A stretch of 64,000 nt of DNA, from positions 55,626 through 119,625 of the forward strand of contig JAQVPJ010000005.1 of assembly GCA_028702135.1 (NCBI GenBank), given 5' to 3'. Below are positions 41,314 to 48,594 of this stretch, one piece after another. Position 1 is the stretch's first letter. Each line of letters begins with the position of its first letter. Below the pieces are notes generated by a model. The model did not search any database, was not told the DNA's origin, and saw nothing but the letters and a program-made list of their open reading frames with translations. This DNA comes from Eubacteriales bacterium. Lineage in GTDB: Bacteria > Bacillota > Clostridia > Oscillospirales > CAG-382. A program made the position numbers and the translations under genes.

Positions 41314-41364
41314 GTATTGATAATACTCACCGAAGTATTTAATCACATTAAGGAGGACTTTTTA

Positions 41365-42225
41365 ATGGTTGAAAGAAACGGTCCGCTCGGCGGGCTTTGC
41401 GGTAAACCGGAACAGTTTTGCTGTGTCAGCGTCAACAAGATATTTGATTCTGCAAGAGATAAAGACTGTTTGGAGGATGTACGCGTTCATCTTTGCGACC
41501 ATGCGCAAGAGGTTATAGACAGAGCAAGTGCTGTTAGATGTAAAAATGTTGAGGTAATCAACACTAACATAAGCATCGAAACGGTACCCTTCAACAGAGG
41601 CTACTATCATGTAACAATTAGATATTTCTTCTGCGTAACCCTTGAATGCTGCGTTAGCAACGGTAGAACACAGGAAGTTCAGGGACTTTGCGTCTTTGAT
41701 AAAAAAATAATTCTGTTCGGAAGCGAAAAGAATGTTGCCATTTTCAAATCTGATCCCACAGAGGACGGTTTCTGTATGCGCCCCAAGGATCTTAAATGCG
41801 ACAGAGATCCCACTCTGCCGACAGTGGTTGTTGAGGTTGCGGAGCCGATCGCACTCGATACAAAGCTGGTCGAGAGATGCAAGCCATTCGGTAACTGCTG
41901 CATTAATCCCGAGGCCATTCCCGATGTAGTGCGTGCACGTTTCGGCGGTGATTTTGTCGACAATATCGGTGCAAATACTTGTTATGTCACAATAGGCGTC
42001 TTTACGGTAATCCGTATGGAACGCGAGGTTCAGTTAATACTTCCAGCTTGCCACTTCTGCCTGCCCGAAAGAGAGAGCAGACAAAACGAAAACACGGATC
42101 CCTGCTCGGTTTTCGGAAAAATGAATTTCCCGCTCGCCGAGTTCTTCCCGTTCGCGGAGGAGCCTGCTTCACAATGCAGAAACGAAAGAAACGACCGCAA
42201 TGACAACAGGGGCGGCTGTAAATAA
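41365..42225 (+). CDS. conserved Cys-rich Clostridia protein, possibly sporulation-related
   Basis: 286 residues from the ATG at 41365, which has AAGGAGG upstream; the track start is too early. No signal peptide. The sequence is soluble, beta-rich and Cys-rich: FCCVSVNKIFDSARDKDCLEDVRVHL, RGYYHVTIRYFFCVTLECC, KIILFGSEKNVAIF, CKPFGNCCINPEAIPDVV, RMEREVQLILPACHFCLPE, and a polar Arg/Asn/Asp-rich tail. I remember near-identical proteins across sporulating Clostridia annotated as hypothetical. A spore-coat or spore-envelope role is inference, helped by a SigK-like promoter pattern upstream. Confidence 0.7.
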   Translation: MVERNGPLGGLCGKPEQFCCVSVNKIFDSARDKDCLEDVRVHLCDHAQEVIDRASAVRCKNVEVINTNISIETVPFNRGYYHVTIRYFFCVTLECCVSNGRTQEVQGLCVFDKKIILFGSEKNVAIFKSDPTEDGFCMRPKDLKCDRDPTLPTVVVEVAEPIALDTKLVERCKPFGNCCINPEAIPDVVRARFGGDFVDNIGANTCYVTIGVFTVIRMEREVQLILPACHFCLPERESRQNENTDPCSVFGKMNFPLAEFFPFAEEPASQCRNERNDRNDNRGGCK

Positions 42226-42310: not shown

Positions 42311-43384
42311 CTATATTATCTCAAGCGCGTTTGTATCCGGTAGAATCGGAAACGGCTCGGAAGACAGTGTTTGATACCAGTATGCGATCGATGAAATATC
42401 ATCCTGCAAGGGAAGGTATCTGCCCTCGCTACGCCATCCGAGGTCCTGTATTGTTACCTTTAAATCGCTGCAGAAGTATATCGGATCGGTTATATGCCAG
42501 CGATACATCGAAAACCTCTGGTTTGCTTTATAGCAGCCATCCTGCTTTGATGCCTGAAAGCCCGTGTAGGGTGAACAAAAATCGACATACCTGTTTCCGA
42601 CGTCGAAGTCAAAAGCACCGCAGAAGTAATCCTCCGTGCCGGTACCGCATATCGTCGGAAATTCCTTGTCGCCGTCAAGGTAAAATTTTATTTCCCCCTC
42701 GCCCCACCAGCCGTTGTTGTTAACGCCCCAGTACATATATGTTCCGACATACTGTCCTCTGCCCTTGACTCCATCGAGTATGGTATAGACATCCATATAT
42801 TTTACCGGGTTTACGCGGCGGAACTGAGCATGAAAATATGCGCTGTTTTCGGGTATTTCCGTAAGTACATAATCTATCTGATAAAAAAGCGGAAACTCAT
42901 AAGACCAGAGGTTTTGAACTGTAATACGGCAACGCTTGAAAAACGGCATCTCCCAGTAGCAGTTAAAGCCGCGTCTGGGGTTTACGCATACCGCGAGCGA
43001 GGTCAGAGTATTATGCGTCGATGTATCTGCAGATGCAAAGAAGTCCCCGAGCGGACATTCCACAGAAGGATAATCATTATCATCCCAGTAAATACGCAGA
43101 ATAATTAGCCTCGGACGGGGTGAACCCTCGGTCATCCAGATATGCTTTATCGCACCCGGACCTTCAATATCCGCGATAGTATGCTCCTCACCCGGCTTTA
43201 AGTGAATGGCGGGAGAAATCTTCCAGCCTTTTCCGAGCTCACGCGCAGCGTTTGCACCGAACCCCTCGGTCGCCTTGCCCCCTCCGCCCTTTTCTCCTGT
43301 AAAATTCTCCGCAGAAATCGAGCGTGACTTCGCATCTGAAAGCTTTGTAATATCCGATAAGCCTGAACAAATACCGTTGAACAT
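42311..43384 (-). CDS. DUF2961 / GH172-like glycoside hydrolase
   Basis: 357 residues from the ATG at 43384, which has GGAG 6 bases upstream. DUF2961 proteins form family GH172, trimeric enzymes acting on fructofuranosides and arabinofuranosides. Family features are GPGAIKHIWMT near residue 75, VECPLGDFFASAD, NNNGWWGEGEIKFYLDGD with an acidic pair, and CGTGTEDYFCGAF with the second catalytic Glu. No signal peptide, so it is cytosolic. It is the last gene on the strand that carries the kinase/PqqD/peptidase genes, but its link to them is unclear. The substrate specificity cannot be read. Confidence 0.85.
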   Translation of the reverse strand: MFNGICSGLSDITKLSDAKSRSISAENFTGEKGGGGKATEGFGANAARELGKGWKISPAIHLKPGEEHTIADIEGPGAIKHIWMTEGSPRPRLIILRIYWDDNDYPSVECPLGDFFASADTSTHNTLTSLAVCVNPRRGFNCYWEMPFFKRCRITVQNLWSYEFPLFYQIDYVLTEIPENSAYFHAQFRRVNPVKYMDVYTILDGVKGRGQYVGTYMYWGVNNNGWWGEGEIKFYLDGDKEFPTICGTGTEDYFCGAFDFDVGNRYVDFCSPYTGFQASKQDGCYKANQRFSMYRWHITDPIYFCSDLKVTIQDLGWRSEGRYLPLQDDISSIAYWYQTLSSEPFPILPDTNALEII

Positions 43385-43409
43385 AATAAACTCCATATTT
43401 TTATTTTTT

Positions 43410-43552: not shown

Positions 43553-43882
43553 TTACACAATATGCACTTCAAAGGGCTTGCCTATTTGCTGCGCGTATTT
43601 TACAGTAAAGTTCGTGCCGCCGGATACACCGTCCCAAATCGCTATCACAATATCCGCGGTGTCTACAATCAGCTTGTTACGGTAAAGCGGTGCGCTTTTT
43701 CCGTATCTTCCGTAATCGGGGAAAATTATCTGTTTTTTTATATGCTTGCGATCTGCGTAACGCTCCGCAATCGTATCAACACCGACCGCGCCGCCGGTTA
43801 TAAGCATGGTTATTCCCTTAGGTATATACTGTTCTATATTTATATCAGTAATTGACCTTGAACCGACAACAGCTACTTTCAT
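43553..43882 (-). CDS. SLOG-fold (DprA/YspA-like) nucleotide-binding protein
   Basis: 109 residues: MKVAVVGSRSITD at the N-terminus, ITGGAVGVDTIAERYA in the middle and DIVIAIWDGVSGGTNFTVKYA near the end. This Rossmann-like arrangement is that of the SLOG superfamily, whose members bind nucleotides or nucleic acid. The ATG overlaps the stop of the S26 peptidase by 4 bases (ATGA), placing it in the operon with the kinase and PqqD genes. Its function is unknown. Confidence 0.75.
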   Translation of the reverse strand: MKVAVVGSRSITDINIEQYIPKGITMLITGGAVGVDTIAERYADRKHIKKQIIFPDYGRYGKSAPLYRNKLIVDTADIVIAIWDGVSGGTNFTVKYAQQIGKPFEVHIV

Positions 43883-44331
43883 TTATATAAACTCCGAATC
43901 TTTTGACAGATTGAATAGAAGAAACATCGGGGTATCGCCGTTTTTACACATATGGCCGCATAAAGTCTGTGCCTTGCGCTGTCTGTCTTTATCCTCCTGC
44001 TTTTATGTGTATACTCGCTGACTAAGCCGATGACATTATCATCGGTGACGCAACGCTCCTTTAAGGTTTGATTATCCCCTCTGCATATATAACCGTTCCT
44101 TGTAACCTTAATTATCCTGTGAAGAACAAATCTGCAGTCATCACGCCTGTAAAAAGCAATGTCATATTTTTGCATCCGATGTGCGGGTTTAATGATTTTT
44201 ACAGTATCCACACCGCCCGTCAACGTCGGCTTCATGCTTGTTCCCTTTACAGTAAAGCTCATACTGCCGCCGCTTTTTAACTGCCGGTCAATTAGCGGAT
44301 ACAGCTCGGTGAGCGTATATAACCTACTCAA
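43879..44331 (-). CDS. S24/S26-type peptidase without membrane anchor
   Basis: 150 residues. FTVKGTSMKPTLTGGVD carries the nucleophile Ser of the S26 family. KYDIAFYRRDDCRFVLHRIIKV carries His where SipW/ER-type signal peptidases have their general base, so a Ser-His dyad is likely rather than Ser-Lys. CRGDNQTLKERCV matches the late GDN motif. No N-terminal membrane helix is present, unlike true signal peptidases. The next gene upstream encodes PqqD, with an 8-base overlap. Such soluble peptidases accompany PqqD proteins in peptide-modification loci, so it may trim a modified leader peptide (inference). Confidence 0.75.
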   Translation of the reverse strand: MSRLYTLTELYPLIDRQLKSGGSMSFTVKGTSMKPTLTGGVDTVKIIKPAHRMQKYDIAFYRRDDCRFVLHRIIKVTRNGYICRGDNQTLKERCVTDDNVIGLVSEYTHKSRRIKTDSARHRLYAAICVKTAIPRCFFYSICQKIRSLYK

Positions 44332-44593
44332 TTACTCCTGCTTCCTTTAAGCTGTCAACGAAAGACAAAGCATCTTTTTCCGCTTCCGTGTAATCTATTT
44401 CATATTCTGAGACCAACGCTTCGGTAAGTTGCCGCATCTCGGCACCCTTCTCCAAAACTTGCCATAAAACAACGGCGGTTTCGTTAAGCTTTATGATTCC
44501 GTTGAAGTCCAGGCAGCCGGTTGTATCGACAACAACAAAACAACCTGCGACCTCCTTTAGAATATACCCTTTTTTTATCGTCATAAAGCACAT
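44324..44593 (-). CDS. PqqD family peptide chaperone
   Basis: 89 residues from the ATG at 44593, which shares its A with the TGA of the kinase gene (TGATG). PqqD-type winged helix: ILKEVAGCFVVVDTTGCLDFNGIIKLNETAVVLWQVLEKGA, then helices EALVSEYEID and EKDALSFVDSLKEAGVI. PqqD proteins bind the leader of a ribosomal peptide and present it to a modifying enzyme, typically a radical SAM protein. None is visible in this window, nor a precursor peptide I can support. Confidence 0.85.
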   Translation of the reverse strand: MCFMTIKKGYILKEVAGCFVVVDTTGCLDFNGIIKLNETAVVLWQVLEKGAEMRQLTEALVSEYEIDYTEAEKDALSFVDSLKEAGVIE

Positions 44594-45267
44594 CAGCCTT
44601 TCATCCCGTTGTATGAGCATTCAACCGCTTCCATGCTCATATCGCAGTGCAGCTTATAAATGGGTGTGCAACATAGCAGTCTGTCAAGCAGCGTCATCAA
44701 CATAACCGCTTTATCAGAGGGACGGAGCGTATTCGACAGCATAAGGGGTAGGGCTTCTTCCGCGCAGAGCCGCCTGATGACGTTCTTAATGCCTGGTTTT
44801 ATAAATGCAATCGCTCCGAGAGGGACTATCTCGTTTCTGCTGTTGTTTGTTTTTCCGCTCCACGGAGTACCGCAGACCATAAAACGGTTGTTTATCAGAC
44901 GTAATGCGGGCTTGTCGTCATTTAATATATACGCTCTTTTGCCAAAGTATTCTAACCACAATGAGGTATGAGTGGATTTCCCCACACCGCTTTTTGCAGA
45001 AAACAGATAAGCACGACCGTCTAAAACTACGGCGGAAGCGTGCAATACCATACCTCCGAAATCGAGCAGCTTCCTGTAAAACTCCGCACCGGTATAGATG
45101 TACTCGTTACTGTCGTCGGAAATCTCCCGTATACTATCTGAAGAAACGGAGATTATTATATCGGCTTTGCGCTCGGTTTTTAACTCATATGGCCGGGATT
45201 GTATCGAGAGAGTTTTTTCCTTCGGCTGCATTGCTACCACAAGGGAGGCTACCGAATATTTTTTCAT
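44593..45267 (-). CDS. HPr-kinase-like ATP-binding protein
   Basis: 224 residues. The C-terminal kinase-like core of HprK is visible: MVLHASAVVLDGRAYLFSAKSG leads into the P-loop SAKSGVGKST, then ILNDDKPALRLINN resembles the HprK acidic motif and GTPWSGKTN follows. Residues 1-80 are an N-terminal domain different from HprK. Members of this group occur in lasso peptide and other RiPP loci as kinases acting on precursor peptides. It is the first gene of the operon, divergent from apgM. Confidence 0.8.
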   Translation of the reverse strand: MKKYSVASLVVAMQPKEKTLSIQSRPYELKTERKADIIISVSSDSIREISDDSNEYIYTGAEFYRKLLDFGGMVLHASAVVLDGRAYLFSAKSGVGKSTHTSLWLEYFGKRAYILNDDKPALRLINNRFMVCGTPWSGKTNNSRNEIVPLGAIAFIKPGIKNVIRRLCAEEALPLMLSNTLRPSDKAVMLMTLLDRLLCCTPIYKLHCDMSMEAVECSYNGMKG

Positions 45268-45419: not shown

Positions 45420-46637
45420 ATGAAATATATAGTCTTAATCGGAGACGGGATGGCAGACGTTCCTTTAAGAGAGCTCGGAGGTAAAACTCCGCTGCAGGCA
45501 GCCGAAAAACCCGGCATGAATAATTTGGCGCAGTATGGTATTAACGGTATGGTGTCTACGGTGCCTGAGGATATGACGCCAGAGAGCGATACTGCCAACC
45601 TGGCTCTGATGGGCTATGACCCCAAGGTGTATTCCAGGGGACGCTCGCCGCTTGAAGCGTTGAGCATGGGTATAGATATGCAGCCGGAGGATACGGCGAT
45701 TCGTGCAAATATCGTCGCTCTGTCAGATGACGGTCTCCCATATGAGCAAAAAATAATGCTCGACCATTCGGCCGATGAGATACCCACTGAAGAAGCGAGG
45801 GTGCTTATAGAGGCCCTTAATAACAGATTCGGAAATGAAAATCTCCATTTTTATACGGGGGTGAGTTACCGTCATTGCCTTATCTGGAAGGACTGCCCTG
45901 ATTTTACCGATTTTACGCGGCCGCATGACATTCTTGGTAAAAGGATTACCGAATATCTGCCATCAAAGCCCGAGAGCGTACCTATGAGAAGGCTTATGTC
46001 CGAATCCTTCGACCTTTTGAACAATCATCCTGTAAATAAAAACAGAGCTGCAAGAGGCCTTAAAAAAGCGAATTCACTTTGGTTATGGAGTCCGGGGAAA
46101 AAACCTTCCTTACCTTCTTTTAAAGAAAAAACCGGTCTGAACGCCTCGGTGGTCTGCGCGGTCGACCTTATAAAGGGAATAGGTCTCTGCGCGGGTATGA
46201 GAGCGCCGTTTATCGAGGGAGCGACCGGAAACCTTAACACAAACTATAAGGGAAAGCTTGAAACAGCTATACGAGAGCTGGAAAGCGGTGCTGATTTGGT
46301 TTATATCCACATTGAAGCTCCTGACGAGTGCGGTCACAGGGGAGAGATTGACAATAAGATCAAAGCGATTGAGCTTATCGATTCACAGGTGCTCGTCCCG
46401 CTTTTAAAATATATGGATTCGCACTTGCAGCCTTATAAAATATTGCTATTACCGGATCATCCGACACCGATATATGTGCGTACCCACACTATTGATCCCG
46501 TACCTTTTGTAGTCTATTCCTCAAATAACAAAAAGAGCAGCTTGATAAGTATTTATGACGAGCAGAGTGGTGTATGCGGCGGTGTTTATTTCGACAAAGG
46601 TGAGCTCCTTATGGACTACTTCATAAAGGAAACATAA
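45420..46637 (+). CDS. apgM: cofactor-independent phosphoglycerate mutase, archaeal type
   Basis: 405 residues from the ATG at 45420; the track adds 172 non-coding residues upstream. ApgM interconverts 3- and 2-phosphoglycerate. Alkaline phosphatase superfamily metal motifs: IVLIGDGMADVP, the nucleophile region TPESDTANLALMGYDP, HIEAPDECGHRG, and LLPDHPTPIYVRTHT. KGIGLCAGM is also typical. A perfect DnaA-box match (TGTGGATAA) lies 6 bases before the start codon, overlapping the ribosome site region, which may be coincidence. The following gene is 32 bases away. Confidence 0.92.
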   Translation: MKYIVLIGDGMADVPLRELGGKTPLQAAEKPGMNNLAQYGINGMVSTVPEDMTPESDTANLALMGYDPKVYSRGRSPLEALSMGIDMQPEDTAIRANIVALSDDGLPYEQKIMLDHSADEIPTEEARVLIEALNNRFGNENLHFYTGVSYRHCLIWKDCPDFTDFTRPHDILGKRITEYLPSKPESVPMRRLMSESFDLLNNHPVNKNRAARGLKKANSLWLWSPGKKPSLPSFKEKTGLNASVVCAVDLIKGIGLCAGMRAPFIEGATGNLNTNYKGKLETAIRELESGADLVYIHIEAPDECGHRGEIDNKIKAIELIDSQVLVPLLKYMDSHLQPYKILLLPDHPTPIYVRTHTIDPVPFVVYSSNNKKSSLISIYDEQSGVCGGVYFDKGELLMDYFIKET

Positions 46638-48209: not shown

Positions 48210-48410
48210 TTAGTAATCCTTACCGTCCTTTTTCCTGTCGCAGTTAATTATAACAGTAACCTCGCATCCATCAGATTTCTTATCTTTTTTGTCTTCGCAG
48301 CCCCAAAACTTCTTATCTTCGCTATCACATTTTGTGATAACCTTAACATTGCAGTTGCACTCGTCTTTCTTATCCTTTTTTTCGCAAGGATTGTAATATA
48401 AATCTCCCAT
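48210..48410 (-). CDS. small Cys/Lys/Asp-rich protein
   Basis: 66 residues from the ATG at 48410, which has AGGTGAGG upstream. The sequence is two related halves: CNCNVKVITKCDSEDKKFWG and CEVTVIINCDRKKDGKDY, each a C-x-V-x-V-I-x-x-C-D strand followed by a Lys/Asp stretch, so an internal duplication is likely. Five or six Cys in 66 residues suggest metal binding or disulfide cross-linking, as in spore-coat proteins. No family recognised. Confidence 0.6.
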   Translation of the reverse strand: MGDLYYNPCEKKDKKDECNCNVKVITKCDSEDKKFWGCEDKKDKKSDGCEVTVIINCDRKKDGKDY

Positions 48411-48594
48411 TATAACCTCACCTTTCATAATATCTTGATGCGTGGAAATTTTTTTTCCATACAATCAGTACATTATATGACGTTTGTTCAACATGTGCCT
48501 AAACTGTCTTAAAATAAAGCTGAGTGTTTTTTGTGTCCGATACTGCTGCAAAATAAGCAATTTAGCATAAATAAGTGTCGCAGATGTTAATTAA

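Follow-up and report, generated by a model that had tools for sequence, protein, structure and literature searches.

What does an operon do that combines an HPr-kinase-like gene, a PqqD-family gene and a leader peptidase gene, when no substrate peptide is encoded beside it? The question is raised by four overlapping genes on the minus strand (45267-43553) of the 64-kb stretch of DNA analysed here (hereafter the window). A sequence-only reading of this stretch called them an orphan operon and suggested that it could be a stand-alone module for peptide phosphorylation and processing.

The four genes and their products

All four open reading frames proposed in that reading were recovered together with their junctions (Table 1). 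The kinase stop codon and the ATG of the PqqD gene at 44593 share an A (TGATG), the S26 gene starts with TTG and overlaps the PqqD frame by 8 bases, and the SLOG and S26 genes overlap by 4 bases (ATGA). The PqqD protein likely starts at the ATG at 44593 or at the alternative in-frame ATG at 44584.

The PqqD and SLOG proteins score above the curated cut-offs of PF05402 (1.7e-14, 54.3 bits versus 23.4) and PF10686 YAcAr (4.9e-8, 33.1 bits versus 28.2), respectively; against defence-system models, the SLOG protein gave weak matches to ShosA and PsyrA only. The S26 protein matches the archaeal-type signal peptidase model TIGR02228 (2.2e-10) and the SipW model, in both cases under the equivalog cut-off, and an N-terminal membrane anchor is not evident in its sequence. 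No Pfam family matches the kinase, and its best family match, TIGR04249 (ScmC, 4.8e-8), is sub-threshold, with other HprK-related models scoring more weakly. The description of this protein as HprK-like is nevertheless correct, because its AlphaFold model (pLDDT 92.7) matches the structures of HPr kinase/phosphatase (3tqf, 1kkm and 1knx) and PEPCK.

Table 1. Features of the operon and its borders, in window coordinates
Feature	Position	Strand	Remarks
Kinase gene, HprK-fold, LppK-like	44593..45267	(-)	224 aa
Kinase motifs	P-loop G94-x-G96-K97-S98-T99; conserved H76; N116-D117-D118		invariant alignment columns, AlphaFold model
Discrete RRE (PqqD family, LppB-like)	44324..44593	(-)	ORF reaches 44620
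S26 archaeal/SipW-type leader peptidase, LppS-like	43879..44331	(-)	150 aa; Ser32-His71-Asp86
SLOG (YAcAr) protein	43553..43882	(-)	109 aa
Phosphoglycerate mutase gene, divergent	45420..46637	(+)	syntenic module border across the family; outside the module
DUF2961 gene, 3' of SLOG	42311..43387	(-)	kept in sister species L033, absent in the sister genus; probably outside the module

Resemblance to linear polyphosphorylated peptides and other systems

Linear polyphosphorylated peptides (LPPs), a RiPP family published in May 2026, are represented by the lppAKBSDN genes of Paenibacillus alginolyticus, which stand in the order A-K-B-S-D-N (PMC13381572). They encode a precursor with a YxxP leader (LppA), an HprK-like kinase (LppK), an RRE (LppB), a SipW-like peptidase (LppS), an exporter (LppD) and an NTP transferase (LppN) (PMC13381572). 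RRE binding, serine phosphorylation and RRE-dependent S26 cleavage have been demonstrated with Paenibacillus homologues (PMC13381572). LppK phosphorylates the Ser at core position 3, and cleavage after Thr-1 by LppS, whose catalytic triad is S29/H68/D93, needs LppB in vitro (PMC13381572). LppB holds the leader through N33, Y60, D70 and F74, which bind its Tyr and Pro, and the published leader motif reads YxxPxVLxHQxIxFETxxS, Px9Fx[T/A] (PMC13381572).

The window operon encodes an HprK-like kinase, a discrete RRE and a SipW-like S26 peptidase in the same K-B-S order. The model of the RRE (pLDDT 86.2) has a winged-helix fold and in Foldseek aligns with two lasso RRE-leader complexes, 5v1u and 6jx3, at a TM-score of about 0.8. 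Aligned to the LppB chain of 9x8z, it is identical at N33, Y60, E61, D70 and F74, a set that includes all four leader-binding residues of LppB. Among 20 Clostridial RREs, Y60 is kept in every one, N33 and D70 in 19/20 each and F74 in 17/20. The peptidase, like LppS, has a Ser-His-Asp triad, Ser32-His71-Asp86, which is invariant in the family alignment. The proposal of a peptide phosphorylation and processing module is thus well supported: the genes and their order, the residues of the RRE, the triad of the peptidase and the fold of the kinase agree with LppK-LppB-LppS.

The window locus differs from the Paenibacillus cluster in having neither an LppD-clade exporter nor an LppN NTP transferase, and in the addition of a SLOG gene. 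The sister genus has no kinase at its locus, and in both genera the precursor gene is unlinked. Clostridial leaders, described below, have Px6F and DIITxS where the LPP leader has Px9F, and beyond YxxP they do not follow the full published motif. The words "Clostridi", "unlinked" and "SLOG" are absent from the main text of the LPP report (PMC13381572), and nothing was found in the literature on exosortase-type or signal-peptidase/PqqD combinations. Because we looked for the full leader motif and for a clustered exporter and transferase and found neither, we file the system as LPP-type by the way it would work rather than as a canonical LPP cluster.

Other known systems share parts with the operon. 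Paeninodin-type lasso clusters comprise a kinase, B1, an NTP transferase and a transporter, and lasso peptides are recognized by a B2 leader peptidase (PF13471) and a macrolactam cyclase. The tailoring set and the RRE fold (5v1u, 6jx3, 9x90) are common to both, but the window genome has no PF13471 domain and no cyclase lies near the operon. The genome holds three matches to PF00733, none of them near the operon; the sole strong one, a 656-aa frame on contig C35, is judged from its length and coverage to be a housekeeping AsnB, and the others are weak. The window RRE also lacks the paeninodin residues (9x90 has Q at the D70 position and G at the N33 position), and the precursor carries YxxP, not WxxP.

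The SynChlorMet system joins the kinase-like ScmC, a PqqD protein and a radical SAM enzyme. The window kinase resembles ScmC, but its score of 32.7 bits lies well under the cut-off of 125, and reading the ~20 kb around the operon gene by gene revealed no radical SAM gene, nor any exporter gene. Radical SAM enzymes do occur in rare relatives, at three LPP-like loci (L032:12717-13853, L065:10387-11511 and L188:10269-11423); the L188 enzyme, the one of the three that was scanned, has ScmE as its best NCBIfam match. The cores of the YxxP peptides at these loci contain at least two Cys, which sets them apart from most other such peptides, and the loci are possible LPP/radical-SAM hybrids. HPr kinase/phosphorylase itself shares its fold and P-loop with the window kinase, which differs in its length of 224 aa, the lack of a Pfam match, its RiPP-gene context and its distinct motifs STHT, NDDKPALR and GTPWSGK.

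Distribution of the module and its precursor peptides

The conserved neighbourhood that the sequence-only reading had named as a check is indeed present in relatives, the kinase-RRE-S26 set being widespread in Clostridia. PqqD occurs in 35/63 genomes of the same family. A search with the kinase alignment gave a match in 131/394 genomes of the order and 124/391 of the class; one third is an upper estimate for the exact kinase type, because these counts include a longer relative of ~300 aa and a few marginal matches. Of 78 loci of the kinase family, 61 have a PqqD gene on the same strand within 3 kb, 56 have an S26 gene and 52 have both, an arrangement that exceeds chance. An ABC exporter gene is no more than 5 kb away at 21 of these loci, and a gene for an NTP_transf_5 protein no more than 6 kb away at 19. 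The full order kinase-RRE-S26-ABC-NTP transferase is found in distant relatives (for example L141, L153, L175, L176, L179, L180 and L187), and other Clostridia carry the whole A-K-B-S-D-N set, often close to capsule genes.

Gene fusions support joint action of the products. At L032, the S26 peptidase is fused to an ABC protein (L032:9521-11716, 731 aa, ABC domains confirmed with Pfam), and at L065 the kinase is fused to PqqD (L065:8998-10137, 379 aa). The L032 fusion resembles C39-type peptidase-exporters with an S26 domain in place of the C39 domain, and a Cys-containing YxxP peptide is encoded just upstream of the L065 fusion (L065:10147-10362).

The SLOG gene follows the S26 gene at 13 loci from two genera, overlapping or touching it after start correction; this coupling is limited to the window genus and one sister genus (g2). 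In the latter, PqqD, S26 and SLOG genes lie beside the same phosphoglycerate mutase gene with no kinase at the locus. No kinase match was found anywhere in genomes G002, G003, G006 and G010, which keep the precursor, the RRE and S26. Phosphorylation by this kinase is therefore not a feature of the whole lineage; either the kinase is dispensable or has been replaced, or it was lost from partly incomplete assemblies. A kinase-only orthologue search of the contig collection returned one locus. In genera g11 and g12, lone PqqD genes stand directly downstream of fumarase-like genes (L042, L044, L057, L058 and L061), and some of the same genomes have the kinase and S26 at separate places (L154, L155 and L166). 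Proteins with SLH domains adjoin the kinase gene in about ten loci (L170, L172, L177, L179 and L180 among them; confirmed with Pfam at L179), which suggests a link to the cell surface.

In these relatives, the kinase gene is preceded by short ORFs with the common sequence MKKxYxxPEIExxxFExEDIITxS, which define a precursor family with the motif YxxPEIExxxFExxDIITxS, a YxxP leader followed, as in LPPs, by a downstream Ser. The profile found 25 members at E<0.01 among the 19,854 small ORFs of the loci and none in reversed or shuffled ORF sets, and a model built from the unlinked members alone recovers the linked ones. The precursor gene lies on the kinase strand within 3 kb in 21/25 cases, all but one of them upstream, versus about 18% expected at random (p about 1e-12). 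Several cores repeat GDN and continue with P and W or WW. Five precursors that were scanned belong to no Pfam or NCBIfam family, one of them giving spurious matches at E>0.05 only.

The profile has no member anywhere in the 64-kb window. It does find one elsewhere in the same genome, on contig G000:C35 (L189:9264-9395, minus strand; E=1.2e-10), encoding the 43-aa peptide MKKKYFPPEIEFIEFDIEDIITESSLAVEPGDNEFKPPDGWWK. Its ATG is preceded by the Shine-Dalgarno-like AGAGGGAG. A distance of 31 bases separates the gene from the secreted-protein gene before it, and DHHW/AlgX-like and MBOAT genes also lie upstream. The same precursor gene occurs in both congeners, in a related setting, and most RRE-carrying genomes of the sister genus have a precursor, likewise unlinked. 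The operon is therefore an orphan locally, with no precursor in 64 kb and neither a radical SAM nor an exporter gene in ~20 kb, but not within its genome. Two other ORFs were considered as precursors and rejected: a Cys-rich 84-aa frame at 48210-48464 (minus strand), which has no YxxP leader and no match to the precursor model, and a conserved frame of ~60 aa downstream of the module in genus g9, in which the leader is absent. The former product is Cys- and Lys/Asp-rich and is encoded near a possible coat-like Cys-rich protein (41317-42225).

Since the precursor is unlinked, the grounds for pairing it with the operon are family resemblance, conserved residues and co-occurrence. Across the 63 family genomes, RRE and precursor are distributed as 26/9/4/24 (both/RRE only/precursor only/neither; Fisher 2.6e-6), and across those at least 90% complete as 13/4/2/13 (p=5e-4); both tests ignore shared ancestry, and the E-value thresholds for positives were fixed after the search results had been seen. 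One of the two occurs without the other in 6/32 well-assembled genomes, and the sister genome G042 has a precursor and no RRE match. RRE, precursor and NTP_transf_5 are all present in 25 genomes.

Contig C27 of the window genome carries an ABC exporter gene followed by an adjacent NTP_transf_5 gene. We considered this pair as the missing D-N half and dropped the claim, because in a maximum-likelihood tree the 20 linked LppD proteins form a clade (support 100/99) that does not include the C27 ABC protein. A search for an LppD-clade exporter in the window genome found none. As to a complete RiPP cluster elsewhere with its own PqqD, none was found, since the genome has one PqqD copy and no lasso B2 peptidase domain.

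Reading of the operon and its alternatives

We consider it probable that the operon provides the K-B-S core, responsible for phosphorylation and leader removal, of an LPP-type RiPP pathway with its parts scattered over the genome. The operon is best read in this way because its K-B-S order, the precursor family and the Tyr/Pro-binding residues of the RRE match. We infer that the kinase, the RRE and the peptidase act on the C35 precursor, whose YxxP leader would be bound in the groove of the RRE. The RRE would then present the peptide to the HprK-fold kinase for phosphorylation of the conserved Ser just after the leader (D-I-I-T-x-S), and the S26 peptidase would remove the leader by a cut close to the conserved Thr. 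Export of the acidic core (GDNxFxxPxxWW) would probably fall to a general ABC exporter, and an unlinked NTP_transf_5 protein is a candidate for its further modification. The SLOG protein would be an accessory unit, perhaps responsive to nucleotides.

Modules in relatives often lie beside genes for SLH-domain or large secreted proteins or capsule genes, and G042 has the precursor with no RRE match. One could thus propose that the kinase, RRE and S26 peptidase serve another substrate, for example a larger cell-surface or S-layer protein, and that the YxxP peptides belong to another process. We hold this to be unlikely, as the YxxP gene immediately precedes the kinase gene on the same strand in many relatives, the Tyr- and Pro-binding residues are retained in the RRE, and PqqD is single in the genome. 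Alternatively, the operon could be what is left of a once complete LPP cluster, decaying and now inactive after the loss of precursor, exporter and transferase. This would agree with the missing D and N genes, with the loss of the kinase at the sister-genus locus and with the lone PqqD genes scattered in the family, such as those beside fumarase-like genes. Four intact frames, catalytic and binding residues kept despite about 47-56% identity to the sister species, tight translational coupling and an intact precursor with a conserved core nevertheless make decay distinctly unlikely.

The literal form of the sequence-only reading, in which a stand-alone module with no dedicated precursor would act on diverse cellular peptides by phosphorylating and processing them, appears very improbable to us. 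It fits a 64-kb window devoid of a precursor, but a dedicated precursor family co-occurs with the module, with a copy in this very genome. The label "stand-alone" is unsupported, because precursor and exporter genes adjoin the module in relatives and a precursor lies on another contig here.

Returning to the dispersed LPP-type core, we put forward a more specific version tentatively, as somewhat short of an even bet. The pathway would be dispersed and largely single-copy, with one operon acting in trans on one unlinked GDN...P..W precursor and with SLOG recruited for control. In the sister genus, the kinase would have been dropped, and the same leader, RRE and S26 peptidase would serve to process a surface peptide that is either unphosphorylated or modified in another way.

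If the operon is read as an LPP-type core, the LPP-type RiPPs described in 2026 from Paenibacillus would extend to a large share of Clostridia, with a precursor family that is new to Pfam and NCBIfam for the five members scanned. Orphan-looking PqqD/kinase/S26 operons would be explained as belonging to a pathway that has its substrate gene at another locus, a warning that gene-cluster mining alone misses dispersed systems. Genomes with one precursor and one maturation operon would make the role of LPP peptides testable.
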